A DNA stretch of 45,007 nt. Source: a bacterium HR35 (GTDB lineage Bacteria > Patescibacteriota > Minisyncoccia > UBA6257 > HR35). Below are positions 32,013 through 39,027 of this stretch, one piece after another (position 1 is the stretch's first letter; every line of letters starts with the position of its first letter). The position numbers and the translations under genes were made by a program. The stretch spans positions 80,034 through 125,040 of the forward strand of contig BEIL01000001.1 in the NCBI GenBank assembly GCA_002898235.1, read 5' to 3'. The notes beneath the pieces were generated by a model that was not told where the DNA came from, did no database searches, and worked only from the letters and a program-made list of their open reading frames with translations.

Positions 32013-32055
32013 AAAGGTACGTTTTCAACGCTATAGCGTTTTATACGTATCTTTA
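32013..32055 (+). repeat. GCTATAGC palindromic repeat, copy 1
   Basis: AAAGGTACGTTTTCAACGCTATAGCGTTTTATACGTATCTTTA. Confidence 0.85.
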
Positions 32056-32184: not shown

Positions 32185-35181
32185 ATGGGTAAAGACAAAA
32201 GTTTTATAAAAAGACAAATAATTAGCGGGATTTTAATAGGGCTTCTAATTAATGCTTTAATTTTAGTTATTTCTTTAGCAGCACCACCAACATCTCCTTA
32301 TCAACCTGGGGAAACTTTAAATCCTAATTGTTCTCCTGGAGACCCAAATTGTACTGTTTTACCTCCAATCACTTCTTTAAATGGTTTAACAACAACTACT
32401 CAAACTTTTTCTGTTGGCACTTCAGGCAATGACTTTAATATTGTCTCAACTGGTTCAGTTCATACTTTCAATCTTCCTGATGCCTCTACTTCTTCTCGAG
32501 GTTTAGTTTCAACAGGAACTCAAACTTTTGCTGGCGATAAAACTTTTACAGGTAATGTCGGTGTTTCTGGAAATAATAATTTATTTTTTGTAAATAAAGG
32601 AAAAAGAGAATCTCCACAAGGTGGACCATATGATTGGTATAGAGGTTTTGTTTATTTAGGAAAAGATTTAAATCCTGATGAGTGGCAAACTTCTACAATG
32701 GATCCAGTTTATAACTCCGCTTATTTAGTTCTTGGAGTAGATACAGATATAGGAGCGTTTATGCCCGCTATTTACAATCCAAATGATTTAAGTTATCTTA
32801 GAGCTGCTAATATTGAAGGAGCTTCTGGTGTTTTTCAGGGTGATATCTATCTTCAAAAAACAGAAGGTTCATCAATTTTTTTCAAACCTAGCGGCGGGAG
32901 TATCGAAAGCGAAATTAGGTATGATAGTTTAAATAAAAAGATTTTTTTGATTGGTTATAATAGAGATTTTTCTTTTCAAATAAAGACAGAAACTCCTATA
33001 ATTAATGAAATTTTTTCTATTTATAATTCTTCAACCCCTCTTCTTTCTTTGGGTCCTTCTGGAGATTTAACAGTTAATGGTTTTATTATTGCTACTTCAG
33101 GTATTGCTTGCAATGACCCAGATGCTGGTTGTGGATGGTATTTCAGAAATAAAGATATCACTGATTGGTATTTAAAATATGATAGCTATGGTGGTCCTAG
33201 TTTAAATTTATCTTTAGGCAATTCTAATAATACCGATTACTCTTTTAAGATAGGATTTGATGACGGAACCAATTTTGTTCCAGGTATTATTTTTTCAAAT
33301 TCAGGAAATATCAAGTTTAATAATCCTTGGTCTAATATTTATGGAGAAAATCTTAAAATTTGGGGAAGTTCGAACTCAAATTTACTTTTGCAACCACCGG
33401 ATAGTTCTTCTGGTAATATTGGCATAGGAACAACAACACCGACTGAAAAATTGGATGTAGTTGGTAATATAAAAGCAAGTGGTTCATTAATTTCATCTTC
33501 CTTAACTCCTGGTTCAATCTTATTTGCTGGAACAGGAGGAGTAATTTCACAAGATAATGCTAATTTATTCTGGGATAATACAAATAAAAGACTAGGAATA
33601 GGAACAACAACGCCAGCAGGAATTTTACATGTTGCTACAGGAACAACTAATGCTTTAGTAGTGAATAATGTTGGCAACGTCGGTATCGGGACGACAAATC
33701 CAGCTTATAAATTAGATGTTGCTGGAAATATAAGGGGGCAAAATAATTTATATGTTTCAGGCTATGTCGGCATCGGGACGACGAGCCCATCAGCGGCTTT
33801 AGAAATTTACAGAACTAATACATCATCAATTTTAACAATTACCTCTGCTACTTCAACTACTTATTCCCCACAAATCCAATTTAGAACAGGAAATCCTCCA
33901 ACTGTAAATTATTCTATAGGAGTAGAAAGAAATTTTAATAATCTTGTGATTACAAGCGGTAACGATGTAAATAATTTTGATAACGGAATAACAATAACTC
34001 CTTATAATGTAGGAATCGGAACTAATTCTCCATCTACTAAATTACATGTATTTTCTAATACTTCAGCTATTTTGTTTTTAGAAGGATATTCTGGAAGCTC
34101 TTTCAGATATTCTATAAGTTCTTTAAGTAATACGGGCAAATGGAGTCTTTTTGTTGATCCATCAGATTTTGGAAATACAGGAGCTTTCATGATAGCAAGT
34201 GCTAATGATGCTTTTAATAGCTTTAATCCTAGGCTCGCAATTTCCCATTCTTCTGGCAACGTCGGCATCGGGACGACTACTCCAGCTTACAAATTACATG
34301 TTATTGGTTCAATTGCTCAAACAAATGCTGTAAATTGTGCTTTATCTTCTGATTCTAATGGTCAAATTATTTGTACTCCATCTTCATTAAAGTATAAAGA
34401 AAACATACAGGATTTAATGTTTGATAAAGAGAAATTTTTATCACTTCAGCCAAGAACTTTTGAATTTAAAAAGGATTTGCCATTTAAGATTGAAGGCAAA
34501 CAAGTTGGCTTTATTGCTGAAGAAGTACAATCTGTCTTTCCTGAGCTTGTAAGATACAATCAAAATAATGAACCTGAAGGATTAAAATATGAACAGATTC
34601 CTGTTTATCTTTATGCTATTGTTAAAGATTTAATTATAAATTTTTCAAATTATGTTAAAGATGCTTTGAGTCAATTAGGAGTAATTGTCGAGCAGGGAGT
34701 TGTTAAAATTGAAAAAATGTTTGTTAAGGAGGTGGTAATTAATTTTGCAGAAATTGATGAAGCAAAAATTAATAAAGCAACAGTTAATCAACTTTGTTTT
34801 GAAGATGAAAATGGAACAGTTTGTATTAATAAGCAAGATTTGAAAAATATTTTAGAAAGAACAGGAGGTGGCGGTCAATTCTATACTCAAAATGGAGCAA
34901 ATTCACCTTCAGGAACTAATATCACTTCCTCCGGCACTTCAACACCAACAACAACCCCAACTTCTACTCCATCAACAATTCCTTCAAATGATTCTTCTAA
35001 CGCTTCATCAACACCGCCATCTTTAGATAACGCAAATCAAACTCAAGGGAATAATACTGGACAAATACAAGATTCTCAAAATAATCAACAAAATAGTCCA
35101 CCGGGTGCTCCTCAAAATTCAGATAATAATCAACAACAACCAAGTAATAATCAACCATCAAACAATGAATCTCAACAATGA
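32185..35181 (+). CDS. Large secreted surface protein with VGIGTTxP repeats and an S74-type intramolecular chaperone domain
   Basis: N-terminal signal/TM; six (V/I/L)GIGT(T/N)xP motifs; SSLKYKENIQDL...LQPRTFEFKKD...VGFIAEEVQSVFPELV...LKYEQIPVYLYAIVKDL; Ser/Thr/Asn/Gln/Pro-rich C-terminus. Confidence 0.85.
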   Translation: MGKDKSFIKRQIISGILIGLLINALILVISLAAPPTSPYQPGETLNPNCSPGDPNCTVLPPITSLNGLTTTTQTFSVGTSGNDFNIVSTGSVHTFNLPDASTSSRGLVSTGTQTFAGDKTFTGNVGVSGNNNLFFVNKGKRESPQGGPYDWYRGFVYLGKDLNPDEWQTSTMDPVYNSAYLVLGVDTDIGAFMPAIYNPNDLSYLRAANIEGASGVFQGDIYLQKTEGSSIFFKPSGGSIESEIRYDSLNKKIFLIGYNRDFSFQIKTETPIINEIFSIYNSSTPLLSLGPSGDLTVNGFIIATSGIACNDPDAGCGWYFRNKDITDWYLKYDSYGGPSLNLSLGNSNNTDYSFKIGFDDGTNFVPGIIFSNSGNIKFNNPWSNIYGENLKIWGSSNSNLLLQPPDSSSGNIGIGTTTPTEKLDVVGNIKASGSLISSSLTPGSILFAGTGGVISQDNANLFWDNTNKRLGIGTTTPAGILHVATGTTNALVVNNVGNVGIGTTNPAYKLDVAGNIRGQNNLYVSGYVGIGTTSPSAALEIYRTNTSSILTITSATSTTYSPQIQFRTGNPPTVNYSIGVERNFNNLVITSGNDVNNFDNGITITPYNVGIGTNSPSTKLHVFSNTSAILFLEGYSGSSFRYSISSLSNTGKWSLFVDPSDFGNTGAFMIASANDAFNSFNPRLAISHSSGNVGIGTTTPAYKLHVIGSIAQTNAVNCALSSDSNGQIICTPSSLKYKENIQDLMFDKEKFLSLQPRTFEFKKDLPFKIEGKQVGFIAEEVQSVFPELVRYNQNNEPEGLKYEQIPVYLYAIVKDLIINFSNYVKDALSQLGVIVEQGVVKIEKMFVKEVVINFAEIDEAKINKATVNQLCFEDENGTVCINKQDLKNILERTGGGGQFYTQNGANSPSGTNITSSGTSTPTTTPTSTPSTIPSNDSSNASSTPPSLDNANQTQGNNTGQIQDSQNNQQNSPPGAPQNSDNNQQQPSNNQPSNNESQQ

Positions 35182-36917
35182 AAAATTTTCTAATTTTAAT
35201 TATTTTTCTTTTGCCAATTTTAGTAGTTTTTTCTGCTTCAATTGATTCAACTTATAAATTTGCTTGGGGAGAAAATATTGGTTGGGTAAATTTTAATCCT
35301 ACTAATGGTAATGTTCAAGTTTTTGATGATAAATTAACTGGTTATGCTTGGAGTGCCAATTATGGTTGGATAAATTTAAGTCCAACAAATGGAGGAGTTC
35401 ATAATGATGGTAATGGCAATTTATCTGGTTATGCTTGGGGAGAACATTTAGGCTGGATTGATTTTAGTAATGTCAAAATTGATCCTAATACTGGTGAATT
35501 TTCTGGTTATGCTGTTATTTTAAGAGATGGAAGTAAAATAAATTTTGATTGCACTAATTGTAAAGTAAAAACTGATTGGAGAAAAAGTATTCCATCGCAA
35601 CCTTCGGCTGGAGGAGGAGCATTTTATAGTGGTCGCGAAATCAAAAAACGAGAAGTTTCACCTGAGGATATTGTCCAGTTAATTTCACAGTTATTACAAT
35701 TTTTAGTCCAAAAGCCAAAAGAAATTGTTAAAGAGATTACAAAACCAAAAATCCCAACTGTTAGTAAAAAAATCACTCCCTCCAAGCCAAAACTATTAAT
35801 TTTAACCTATACTCAGCAAAATAAACCATTATCTGAATTTACTCAAACTTATTTTCCCGAAGAAATCAAAATTTTAGTTGAAAAAATTCCTAAACTTGGA
35901 GAGATTTTTAATAAAATTGGTTTGAATAACTTAGTTAATTTAGAGAAATTAAAAGTAACTAATATTTTTGTTCCTTCATTAACTGAAATTGTTGGTTTAA
36001 AGGTGCCTGTTTTATCAATCCCCAAATTTATTAAAGAAAAAATTCCCGAAGATATTGTGTTTATCAAAACAGCTAAAGGTAATTTAGATTTGAGGCCGAA
36101 AATTACTTTAGATGAAGAAGGAAATATTGTTCAAAAAATTAATTTAGTTGCTGGACAGGAATTTATTTTAATGATTAAGCCTTCAGAAAAAGTAAAAAGT
36201 ATTAAAGGCTATTTAGTTTATCGAGGAAGCTCAAAATCATTTTTAGAAAAAATTTTAGGATTTGTTTCAGCTAAGACGCAGCCTGACGCAGAAAATAATA
36301 TCCGCTTAAATCCGTTCAATAATCCGCGTAAATCCGCGTTTAATAAAGAAATTGAAGAAAGATTAAAAATTTATGAATTTGAATATCAAGATAAAGATGG
36401 TGATGGCGTTTATACTGCTGAAGTCTCGATACCAAAAATTGTTGGTGAGTTTGAAATTAAAACAATTATTGAATACGAAAGAGTTGATTTAGGTAAAAAG
36501 GAATTAAGACTTATTACTGCTATTGATCCTGAAGGTTATGTTTATGAAAAAATTTTTGGTAAAGAAGCAAGAATTGAAGGAGCTAAGGTTTATTTATATT
36601 GGTTTAATCCTGAAACTAAAAAATTTGAACTTTGGCCAGCAAGTAAATTTAGTCAAATTAATCCACAAATTACTGATAAATCAGGAAATTATGTATTTTT
36701 GGTTCCTGAAGGAAGGTATTATTTGAAAGTTGAAAAAGAAGGTTATTTTCCATTTCAATCTGATGAATTTTATGCTTTAGAAGGAGGTTCGGTCCATCAA
36801 AATATTGAACTTAAACCTAAATATTGGTTTCTTTTTGCTATTGATTGGAAGTTTATTGTTATTATAGTTTTGCTTTTATTATTAATTTTTAGAGGCCGAA
36901 GTTTAAAGAATAAATAA
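35178..36917 (+). CDS. Secreted/membrane-anchored surface protein with AWGENIGW repeats and a carboxypeptidase-regulatory-like domain
   Basis: Signal peptide; AWGENIGWVNFNPTNG / AWSANYGWINLSPTNG / AWGEHLGWIDFSN; DKSGNYVFLVPEGRYYLKVEKEGYFPF; C-terminal TM. Confidence 0.8.
   Translation: MKNFLILIIFLLPILVVFSASIDSTYKFAWGENIGWVNFNPTNGNVQVFDDKLTGYAWSANYGWINLSPTNGGVHNDGNGNLSGYAWGEHLGWIDFSNVKIDPNTGEFSGYAVILRDGSKINFDCTNCKVKTDWRKSIPSQPSAGGGAFYSGREIKKREVSPEDIVQLISQLLQFLVQKPKEIVKEITKPKIPTVSKKITPSKPKLLILTYTQQNKPLSEFTQTYFPEEIKILVEKIPKLGEIFNKIGLNNLVNLEKLKVTNIFVPSLTEIVGLKVPVLSIPKFIKEKIPEDIVFIKTAKGNLDLRPKITLDEEGNIVQKINLVAGQEFILMIKPSEKVKSIKGYLVYRGSSKSFLEKILGFVSAKTQPDAENNIRLNPFNNPRKSAFNKEIEERLKIYEFEYQDKDGDGVYTAEVSIPKIVGEFEIKTIIEYERVDLGKKELRLITAIDPEGYVYEKIFGKEARIEGAKVYLYWFNPETKKFELWPASKFSQINPQITDKSGNYVFLVPEGRYYLKVEKEGYFPFQSDEFYALEGGSVHQNIELKPKYWFLFAIDWKFIVIIVLLLLLIFRGRSLKNK
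36275..36341 (+). repeat. In-frame coding palindromic repeat, copy A
   Basis: GACGCAGCCTGACGCAGAAAATAATATCCGCTTAAATCCGTTCAATAATCCGCGTAAATCCGCGTTT; 49/57 nt identical by eye to the copy in the epimerase gene. Confidence 0.85.
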
Positions 36918-36918
36918 A

Positions 36919-37281
36919 ATGAGAAAAGAAATTTTAGTCGGAATAATTTTTTTATTGATTGTCATTAATCTTTATCTTTTATTTAATCTTTATAAACTCC
37001 AAACCCAAATAAATCTTTTAAAAGAAAAACAAAGTAATGTAATCCAACCAATCAATCGGAAGACTCTTGAATTTTTAGATTTATTTGTTAAAAAAGTTTT
37101 AAAAGCAGATAAAGAAGTTGATTTTGAAACAAGGCTTTTGCTAGAGAATAAAGTGAGAGAATTACAGGATAAAGAAATTTTAGATACCTGGAATAAATTT
37201 GTAAATAGTAAAAACGAAACTGAAGCCCAAAATAATGTTAAAGATTTACTCGAAATCCTCATCGAAAAATCCTTAAAATAA
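36919..37281 (+). CDS. Small protein with N-terminal TM, uncharacterised
   Basis: ILVGIIFLLIVINLYLLFNLYKLQ then a helical region. Confidence 0.65.
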   Translation: MRKEILVGIIFLLIVINLYLLFNLYKLQTQINLLKEKQSNVIQPINRKTLEFLDLFVKKVLKADKEVDFETRLLLENKVRELQDKEILDTWNKFVNSKNETEAQNNVKDLLEILIEKSLK

Positions 37282-37324
37282 TTTATATTCAAAAAATAAA
37301 AATTAAATTCCACAGAATTTCACT

Positions 37325-37365
37325 AAGGTACGTATAACACGCTATAGCGATTTAAACGTCCCCTT
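37325..37365 (+). repeat. GCTATAGC palindromic repeat, copy 3
   Basis: AAGGTACGTATAACACGCTATAGCGATTTAAACGTCCCCTT. Confidence 0.85.
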
Positions 37366-37381
37366 GTGTAATTAAAATGAT

Positions 37382-37423
37382 ATTTAAATAAATCATTTAA
37401 AATCATTAATCATTTAAATAAAT
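37382..37423. repeat. AT-rich direct repeats between palindrome copies 3 and 4
   Basis: ATTTAAATAAAT at both ends (37382-37393, 37412-37423); ATCATT at 37392, 37402 and 37409. Confidence 0.6.
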
Positions 37424-37442
37424 ATAGGATGTGATATAATAG

Positions 37443-37485
37443 AGGGGACGTATAAAACGCTATAGCGTTAAAAACGTACCTTTAG
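37443..37485 (-). repeat. GCTATAGC palindromic repeat, copy 4 (inverted relative to copies 1 and 3)
   Basis: AGGGGACGTATAAAACGCTATAGCGTTAAAAACGTACCTTTAG. Confidence 0.87.
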
Positions 37486-37510
37486 TAAAAATTCAATAAT
37501 CAATAAAAAA

Positions 37511-38080
37511 ATGAAAATAGAAGAGAAAAGATTAAAAGTTGGTATTTTAGGAAGGCAGATTTTAATCCTTTTAATGGCTGGAGTGGCTTTAGGTTTAACG
37601 AGTAGTTATAAAAAACATAGATGGATTTTAAAAAGCGTTCCTAAAGAACTTAAAAAAGTTAAACTTAAACTAATTAATCGTGCAATTAAAAGACTTTATC
37701 AATCTAAATTAATTGATTTTAAAGAAACTCCTGATGGTGAAACTATTATTACTCTAAGCGAAAATGGTAAAAAATATGTTCTCAAATATAAAATTGACGA
37801 AATAAAATTGAGAAGACAAAACAAATGGGATGGTTATTGGAGAGCAATAATTTTTGATATTCCAGAAAAATTAAAAAAAGAAAGAGATGTTTTTGCTAAA
37901 AAATTAAAAGAAATAGGAATGGTGCCACTTCAAAAAAGTGTTTTTGTTTATCCATTTGAGTGTCGAGATGAATTAGAATTTATTATCGAGTATTTCAATC
38001 TTAGACCATATATTCGTTTTGGTTTATTAAAAGAAATCGATAATGAATTACATTTAAAAAAGATTTTTGATTTAATTTAA
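37511..38080 (+). CDS. PaaX-like / Cas2-fold protein
   Basis: N-terminal winged-helix-like region; WDGYWRAIIFDIPEKLKKERDVFAKKLKEIGMVPLQKSVFVYPFECRDELEFIIEYF matches the Cas2-like ferredoxin domain pattern seen in PaaX proteins. Confidence 0.75.
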   Translation: MKIEEKRLKVGILGRQILILLMAGVALGLTSSYKKHRWILKSVPKELKKVKLKLINRAIKRLYQSKLIDFKETPDGETIITLSENGKKYVLKYKIDEIKLRRQNKWDGYWRAIIFDIPEKLKKERDVFAKKLKEIGMVPLQKSVFVYPFECRDELEFIIEYFNLRPYIRFGLLKEIDNELHLKKIFDLI

Positions 38081-38105
38081 TTATTTTTTTTAATTTAATT
38101 ATTTT
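38071..38105. repeat. Short tandem repeat TTTAATTTAATTATTTT x2 at the end of the PaaX/Cas2-like gene
   Basis: Two near-identical 17-nt units separated by one T. Confidence 0.7.
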
Positions 38106-38126
38106 AAAAATGAAATTAAATTTTTG

Positions 38127-38167
38127 TAGGGGACGTATAAAACGCTATAGCGTGGAAAACGTACCTT
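38127..38167 (-). repeat. GCTATAGC palindromic repeat, copy 5 (same orientation as copy 4)
   Basis: GTAGGGGACGTATAAAACGCTATAGCGTGGAAAACGTACCT. Confidence 0.87.
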
Positions 38168-38283
38168 TGAAAGGGGCACAACGATATATATTTTAAACTT
38201 AATTTTTTCAAGGTATTATCAGTTCCATTTGTTATAATGATAAAATGAATTTGTTAAATAAAAAGGGATAAAATTATAAAAGG

Positions 38284-39027
38284 ATGAAAACGAAAATTAT
38301 TCCGGCAATTAATGCTCAGAGTTTTGAGGAAATAAAAGAAAAAATAAGTTTATTAAAAGATTTGGTTAAGCATTTTCATTTGGATGTTGCGAGTTTGGAA
38401 TTTACAGGTTATCAAACTTGGCAGAATCCTGAAGATTTGGATAAAATGCAGACTAACGCAGACTCTACGCAGACCGATGCAGAAAATGATATCCGCGTAA
38501 ATCCGTTTAATAATCCGCGTTTATCTGCGTATAAAAATAAGATCAGCTTTGATCTTCATTTGATGCTATCCTTAAAACCTCAAGAAATTTTAAAGTGGAA
38601 TAAAGAAAATGTAAAAACTTTTATTTTGCATTTAGAAGCAAGTCCTAATCCTGATGGTTTGTTAAATATGGCAAAAAAAACAAGAAAGAAAATTTTTATT
38701 GCTTGGTCACCCAAAGTTGAATTTGAATTTATAAAAAAATATTTAAATTATGTTGATGGAGTTTTAATTTTAGGAGTTAATCCCGGCAAAGCAGGCCAAA
38801 AATTTTTAGAAGAAACCTATAAAAAAGTTGAAAATTTAAAATCAAAAATCCAAAATAAAGAAATAAAAAAAATTAAGTTAATGATTGATGGTGGAGTTAA
38901 TGAAGAAAATTTTGATAAAATTTTAAATTATAAACCTAATTTTATTGTTATGGCAAGTGCTATTTACAAATCTAACAATCCTCGCGAAACTTATTTAAAA
39001 TTTTTAAAAAAAACTCAAAATGTTTGA
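38284..39027 (+). CDS. Ribulose-phosphate 3-epimerase-like protein carrying an in-frame repeat insertion
   Basis: KIIPAINAQSFEEI, FHLDVASLEF, FDLHLMLSLKP, GVLILGVNPGKAGQKFLEETYKKV, LMIDGGVNEENF. Confidence 0.85.
   Translation: MKTKIIPAINAQSFEEIKEKISLLKDLVKHFHLDVASLEFTGYQTWQNPEDLDKMQTNADSTQTDAENDIRVNPFNNPRLSAYKNKISFDLHLMLSLKPQEILKWNKENVKTFILHLEASPNPDGLLNMAKKTRKKIFIAWSPKVEFEFIKKYLNYVDGVLILGVNPGKAGQKFLEETYKKVENLKSKIQNKEIKKIKLMIDGGVNEENFDKILNYKPNFIVMASAIYKSNNPRETYLKFLKKTQNV
38446..38532 (+). repeat. In-frame coding palindromic repeat, copy B (inside the epimerase gene)
   Basis: ATGCAGACTAACGCAGACTCTACGCAGACCGATGCAGAAAATGATATCCGCGTAAATCCGTTTAATAATCCGCGTTTATCTGCGTAT. Confidence 0.9.

Follow-up and report, generated by a model that had tools for sequence, protein, structure and literature searches.

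The stretch of DNA analyzed herein (45,007 nucleotides of the genome of the patescibacterium HR35; hereafter, the window) holds two unrelated genes that carry copies of the same palindromic repeat in frame. The first (35178–36917, + strand) encodes a 579-aa surface-type protein with a signal-like N-terminus and a hydrophobic segment at its C-terminus, which matches CarboxypepD_reg weakly; this gene contains copy A, an in-frame insertion of 72 nt (24 codons) at 36272–36343 (+). The second (38284–39027, +) encodes a 247-aa ribulose-phosphate 3-epimerase (PF00834, E = 7.6e-31) and contains copy B at 38446–38538 (+). Read in frame, copy A yields KTQPDAENNIRLNPFNNPRKSAFNKE within the 579-aa ORF, and copy B yields MQTNADSTQTDAENDIRVNPFNNPRLSAYKNK within the epimerase ORF. 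In a BLAST search of the whole genome with copy B as the query, positions 38467–38537 aligned to 36276–36346 of copy A without gaps (85% identity over 71 nt, E = 6.7e-17), and seven further, weaker places were matched. The GC content of copies A and B is 41.7% and 43.7%, versus 27.5% in the flanks, and a pattern of two repeat units matched the window 10 times, where shuffled sequences gave an expectation of 0.75. An Rfam scan of the window returned tRNAs only. The epimerase is 29 residues longer at the copy B site than its insert-free counterpart in the related genome G013, and 17 residues longer than that in G002. Our results confirm the central observation of a first-pass annotation made from the sequence alone, which had placed both copies here, had read each of them in frame, had noted their CCGCG-rich composition relative to the AT-rich surroundings, and had estimated some 30 extra epimerase residues just 5' of the FDLHLML motif.

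Between the two host genes lies a gene for a PaaX-type protein with a Cas2-like central domain (37511–38077). The window also contains a second, unrelated intergenic palindrome of the ACGTATAAAACGCTATAGCGTTAAAAACGT type (32019–32048, 37330–37359, 37448–37477 and 38133–38152), the 20-nt core of which has seven matches in the window versus none expected; three of its copies flank the gene between copies A and B.

The repeat is assembled from a 10-nt unit that recurs as ACGCAGACNN in the left arm and as ATCCGCGTNN in the right arm, with consensus arms of repeated ACGCRGANNN and repeated ATCYGCGTNN, respectively; in copy B, these correspond to ACGCAGA units on the left and ATCCGCGT units on the right. 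Neighboring units are most often spaced by exactly 10 nt, both in the window genome (12 cases) and in G002 (35 cases) and G009 (48 cases), and the middle of the right arm is occupied by a 12-nt step, which reads ATCCGCGTNNATCCGTTTAATAATCCGCGTNNATCCGYGG in the best copies. The roughly 10-nt periodicity proposed earlier holds as a rule, with this step as the departure from it. Because 47 of the 50 adjacent, oppositely oriented unit pairs from the window genome, G002, G009 and loci of other phyla are arranged minus-then-plus, these genomes share a common hairpin polarity. The RNA fold of copy B reached −22.1 kcal/mol (z = −2.47), versus a z of −0.97 when the same copy was folded as DNA, and the RNA fold of copy A was weak (z = −0.53). 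The palindrome is, hence, imperfect.

Elements are about 70–135 nt long, add about 6–45 residues to unrelated enzymes, and have clear inverted arms in the intergenic copies. Specifically, the NDH-2 copy consists of a single arm, those in glutamate dehydrogenase (GDH) and a beta-CASP nuclease of two units only, and the copy in a Ca-type ATPase has its 42-nt right arm present twice in tandem, which lends some support to the earlier suggestion that the repeat is expanding. We also considered whether the 10-nt period renders the element free of stop codons in every frame and rejected this idea: intergenic copies in G009 contain 5.08 stops per 100 codons, versus 5.15 in shuffles. Given this shuffle-like rate, the open frames inside genes are attributable to selection rather than to design.

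Across the window genome (G000; 596 kb, a draft of five contigs with a completeness of 100, from a phylum whose 380 sampled members span about 0.4–2.0 Mb), the two-unit pattern had 56 matches with up to two mismatches, versus one for a reversed control pattern. A three-unit pattern was too strict (no matches in this genome, and matches in 2 of the 380 phylum genomes), so the two-unit pattern was used instead. At least twelve host genes, mostly core and mutually unrelated, carry copies, and every one of these is in frame. They encode the epimerase, a ROK kinase, MurD (in four places), GDH, NDH-2, a transketolase half, the beta-CASP nuclease, Cu-type and Ca-type P-ATPases, cysteinyl-tRNA synthetase, PEP synthase, a DUF protein (function not known) and two surface-type proteins; these were identified by Pfam, except for PEP synthase and the second surface-type protein, which we named from their sequences. 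A few clusters are intergenic (e.g., C4:9014-9107 and C1:147733-147825). A peptide core, IRxNPFNNPRxS, is recognizable across hosts, and copies share specific sequence that extends beyond the unit (NNIRLNPFNNPRKS, NDIRVNPFNNPRLS, NNIRVNPYNNPRTS, NIRENPFNDPS and ISVYPFNNPYES), which favors copying over separate origins. The same genome contains intein-like insertions in dCTP deaminase and PEP synthase (L009:2665-4497 and L080:2-2845, both on the − strand), and PEP synthase has a repeat copy besides.

The first-pass annotation would have been contradicted by a segment conserved in all epimerase orthologs with no copies elsewhere. This is clearly not the case: the genome has many further copies, and both host genes have relatives in which the segment is missing, shorter or different. 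At the copy A site, three related genomes (G007, G001 and G008) are without exactly 72 nt, i.e., copy A is a clean insertion. TAA stands on either side of its other 69 nt and, judging from this single case, may represent a target duplication; no such duplication was suggested at the other sites, where the flanks were too diverged or the sites were not empty. The transketolase insert measures 135 nt and adjoins an older ACGCAGA pair that is also present in G002, the NDH-2 protein is 12 residues longer than that in G002, and the MurD inserts are missing from G011 (68% identical). In all, about ten host genes have relatives with empty, shorter or differently filled sites, and at every site compared the net length change preserves the frame, as expected from selection. 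Epimerase relatives were also sought in viral contigs for alignment, and none were found.

To map the epimerase insert, the G013 protein, which has none, was aligned with its human counterpart (ribulose-phosphate epimerase, 3qc3; E = 1.8e-18); the insertion point falls after helix 2 and before strand 3. We take this to be the end of the TIM barrel opposite the metal site. The H-x-D, DLHLM and MIDGG motifs, which lie on both sides of the insert, are intact in the sequence. An AlphaFold model of the epimerase, built from the single sequence, reached a pLDDT of only 54 and was set aside for its poor quality.

Several of these sites are occupied by other repeat families in related genera. At the epimerase site, G001 and G013 have no insert and G002 has a short one, whereas G008 and G016 carry a segment of AGTTCGCR units, a family with 82 matches in G014, 17 in G008, 12 in G016 and none in the window genome. 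The GDH site in G002 holds a TCCGG-type palindrome, and other repeats are found at the Ca-type ATPase site and at both CopB sites in other genera. Such sites could be insertion hot spots, or one family could have replaced another in place. A similar pattern has been reported for the Rickettsia palindromic elements (RPEs) RPE-4, RPE-6 and RPE-7, for which orthologs lack the typical element or have a different RPE nearby (PMC3767692). The additional families (AGTTCGCR, TCCGG and TCCGCT types) likewise have a spacing of about 10 nt and lie in frame at the GDH, ATPase and epimerase loops of related genera (G014, G008 and G016, and loci L217 and L246 in G002). In the Paceibacterota genome RSWP11 (L154, about 1900–2030), GTTCG-type units sit beside ATCCGCGT-type units in one intergenic stretch, suggesting that the families use common machinery or insert within one another. 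A further family in the window genome, of the GTCCGTGTNN type, forms two near-identical long copies side by side (L011:23-384, i.e., C4:7522-7884), and the 135-nt transketolase insert is formed by a related family.

Beyond the genus, the two-unit pattern (one mismatch) varied within the taxonomic family from zero (G001, G003, G005, G006, G011 and G013) to 211 matches in G009. A 21-base pattern derived from the window genome's own copies matched 82 DNA stretches among GTDB genomes from about eighteen other phylum-level groups, including Chloroflexota, Bacteroidota, Spirochaetota, Cyanobacteria, Acidobacteria, Planctomycetota, Cloacimonetes and Poribacteria. About four chance matches are expected (our estimate, which assumes even base composition over all bases searched), and a few of the 82 may be of this kind, e.g., one in Paenibacillus inside a long ORF. 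Counts over whole genomes, with no mismatch, reached 192 in Anaerolineae SJ142, 101 in Treponema RGIG4505, 70 in Paceibacterota RSWP11 and 67 in Anabaena CRKS33, and a control pattern had no matches in any of these four. Outside the lineage, 12 of 71 repeats (17%) fell inside an ORF of at least 150 aa, versus 295 of 400 random positions (74%), and in G009 the corresponding values were 3 of 27 clusters versus 183 of 300 positions. In the window genome, 11 of 14 (79%) were inside ORFs, versus 247 of 320 random positions (77%). Hence, the unit is widely distributed as a hairpin between genes, which it avoids elsewhere, and in this genus it occurs inside genes at chance frequency. It is too short a sequence for homology across phyla to be proven. 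The open-access literature searched yielded no description of the repeat strings and no report of coding palindromes in Patescibacteria.

Among known elements, the closest parallels are the RPEs and the Wolbachia palindromic elements, short palindromes found in frame in unrelated conserved genes and also between genes, with one peptide recurring in different hosts (PMC3767692, PMC2229807, PMC10969869). The repeat described here does the same, so that the RPE-like character proposed in the first-pass annotation is supported with regard to behavior; the likeness would be one of behavior, and we do not claim membership by sequence. It differs in belonging to another phylum, in its 10-nt units, variable length and solo arms, and in sharing its unit with intergenic repeats of many other phyla. 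RPEs are palindromes of 100–150 bp with a stable stem-loop; the elements here measure about 70–135 nt, with RNA z-scores of −2.47 (B) and −0.53 (A). RPE inserts lie in solvent-exposed loops distant from the active site; the epimerase insert maps between a helix and a strand, as noted above. Palindromic in-frame coding insertions have also been described in Methanocaldococcus jannaschii (Suyama 2005, as cited in PMC2229807 and PMC2996958), and, as far as those citing descriptions go, they resemble ours but are archaeal. REP palindromes tagged GTAG or CGTC are stem-loops of 20–40 bp in many species, some of them intragenic, with dimers coding for 20–30 residues, and the CGTC type lacks a dedicated transposase (PMC3733652). 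Our repeat is like them in being a short stem-loop that is sometimes inside genes, and in lacking a dedicated transposase like the CGTC type, but its arms are arrays of 10-nt units rather than single stem-loops with end tags, and, unlike in the REP/RAYT system (REPtron), no Y1 (HUH) tyrosine transposase was found in its own genome. PARCELs (palindromic amphipathic repeat coding elements) are likewise palindromic DNA with coding capacity, but encode amphipathic repeats of 25 residues that follow one another in tandem, in ORFs whose function is unknown (PMC2996958), in contrast to the 10-nt unit and the short inserts in housekeeping enzymes seen here. Relative to MITEs, inverted arms are present, a possible TAA duplication occurs at copy A only, and lengths vary.

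Taken as a whole, we favor, with a probability of roughly 0.78, an RPE-like family of non-autonomous palindromes of 10-nt units that has been copied to many sites, inside genes included. This reading starts from what is directly observed, namely copies that stand in frame, relatives whose corresponding sites are empty, shorter or differently filled, and a hairpin layout in common with intergenic copies in other phyla. Short palindromic elements unable to move on their own would have been copied to many places, including gene interiors; we infer this dispersed copying, and with it the mobility proposed earlier, from dispersal and presence/absence patterns, with neither a transposase nor an insertion event seen. 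Within genes, a copy would survive if its net length was a multiple of three, if it contained no stop and if it entered a tolerant loop, a selective filter that the data support. The surviving element would then be translated as extra loop residues with the predicted core IRxNPFNNPRxS, presumably with a near-neutral effect on the host protein. Later, copies would grow, shrink or be overtaken in place by other repeat families, and this drift, growth and replacement is partly supported. The Y1/RAYT transposase (PF01797) was not found in the window genome, G002 or G009, occurring only in G011, which has no repeat matches. We therefore rejected mobilization by RAYT, given that the many-copy genomes lack PF01797; spread would have depended on trans-acting machinery and on a copying process resembling transposition. 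Against the favored reading stand the missing transposase, a target duplication suggested at one site only, and lengths that vary down to a single arm or two units, unlike a MITE of fixed length.

The main rival holds that the repeats arose in place, through hairpin-primed template switching and slippage of units, with similarity between sites reflecting gene conversion. The variable lengths and single arms fit such in-place rewriting, as do the doubled 42-nt arm, the different families found by genus at the GDH, Ca-type ATPase, CopB and epimerase sites, and the missing transposase. However, unrelated genes hold copies whose similarity extends for tens of nucleotides past the unit (85% over 71 nt), and three relatives have a repeat-free site where copy A has been cleanly inserted; we regard in-place origin as unlikely. 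That so reduced a genome keeps the segments in its conserved genes, with a peptide core recognizable across hosts, could instead suggest loops selected for function (e.g., as interaction or stability modules), to which the DNA palindrome would be incidental. Against this, the same DNA is coding in either orientation and yields different peptides elsewhere (TDLHG, RINAD, PRKSV in G002), the repeat also lies between genes, and relatives manage without the segment, making selected function very improbable. An assembly or binning artefact is scarcely credible: although the assembly is a five-contig draft, independent genomes of the family (G002, G007, G008 and G016) have repeats at the same gene sites, and the inserts preserve the frame everywhere. 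More speculatively, decamer-unit palindromes could constitute one cross-phylum class of mobile or self-rewriting DNA with a shared mechanism, with the loops of core enzymes in this lineage continually rewritten as each genus's active family replaces the previous one, a proposal that we consider doubtful.

Previous examples of in-frame coding palindromes came chiefly from Rickettsia and Wolbachia, with one archaeon besides. Their presence in a reduced genome from a different phylum means that the long-standing question of how such elements spread, and of how proteins accommodate them, can be tested by comparing related genomes. Further, that the unit recurs between genes in many phyla suggests that these repeats have their source, or their mechanism, in common.
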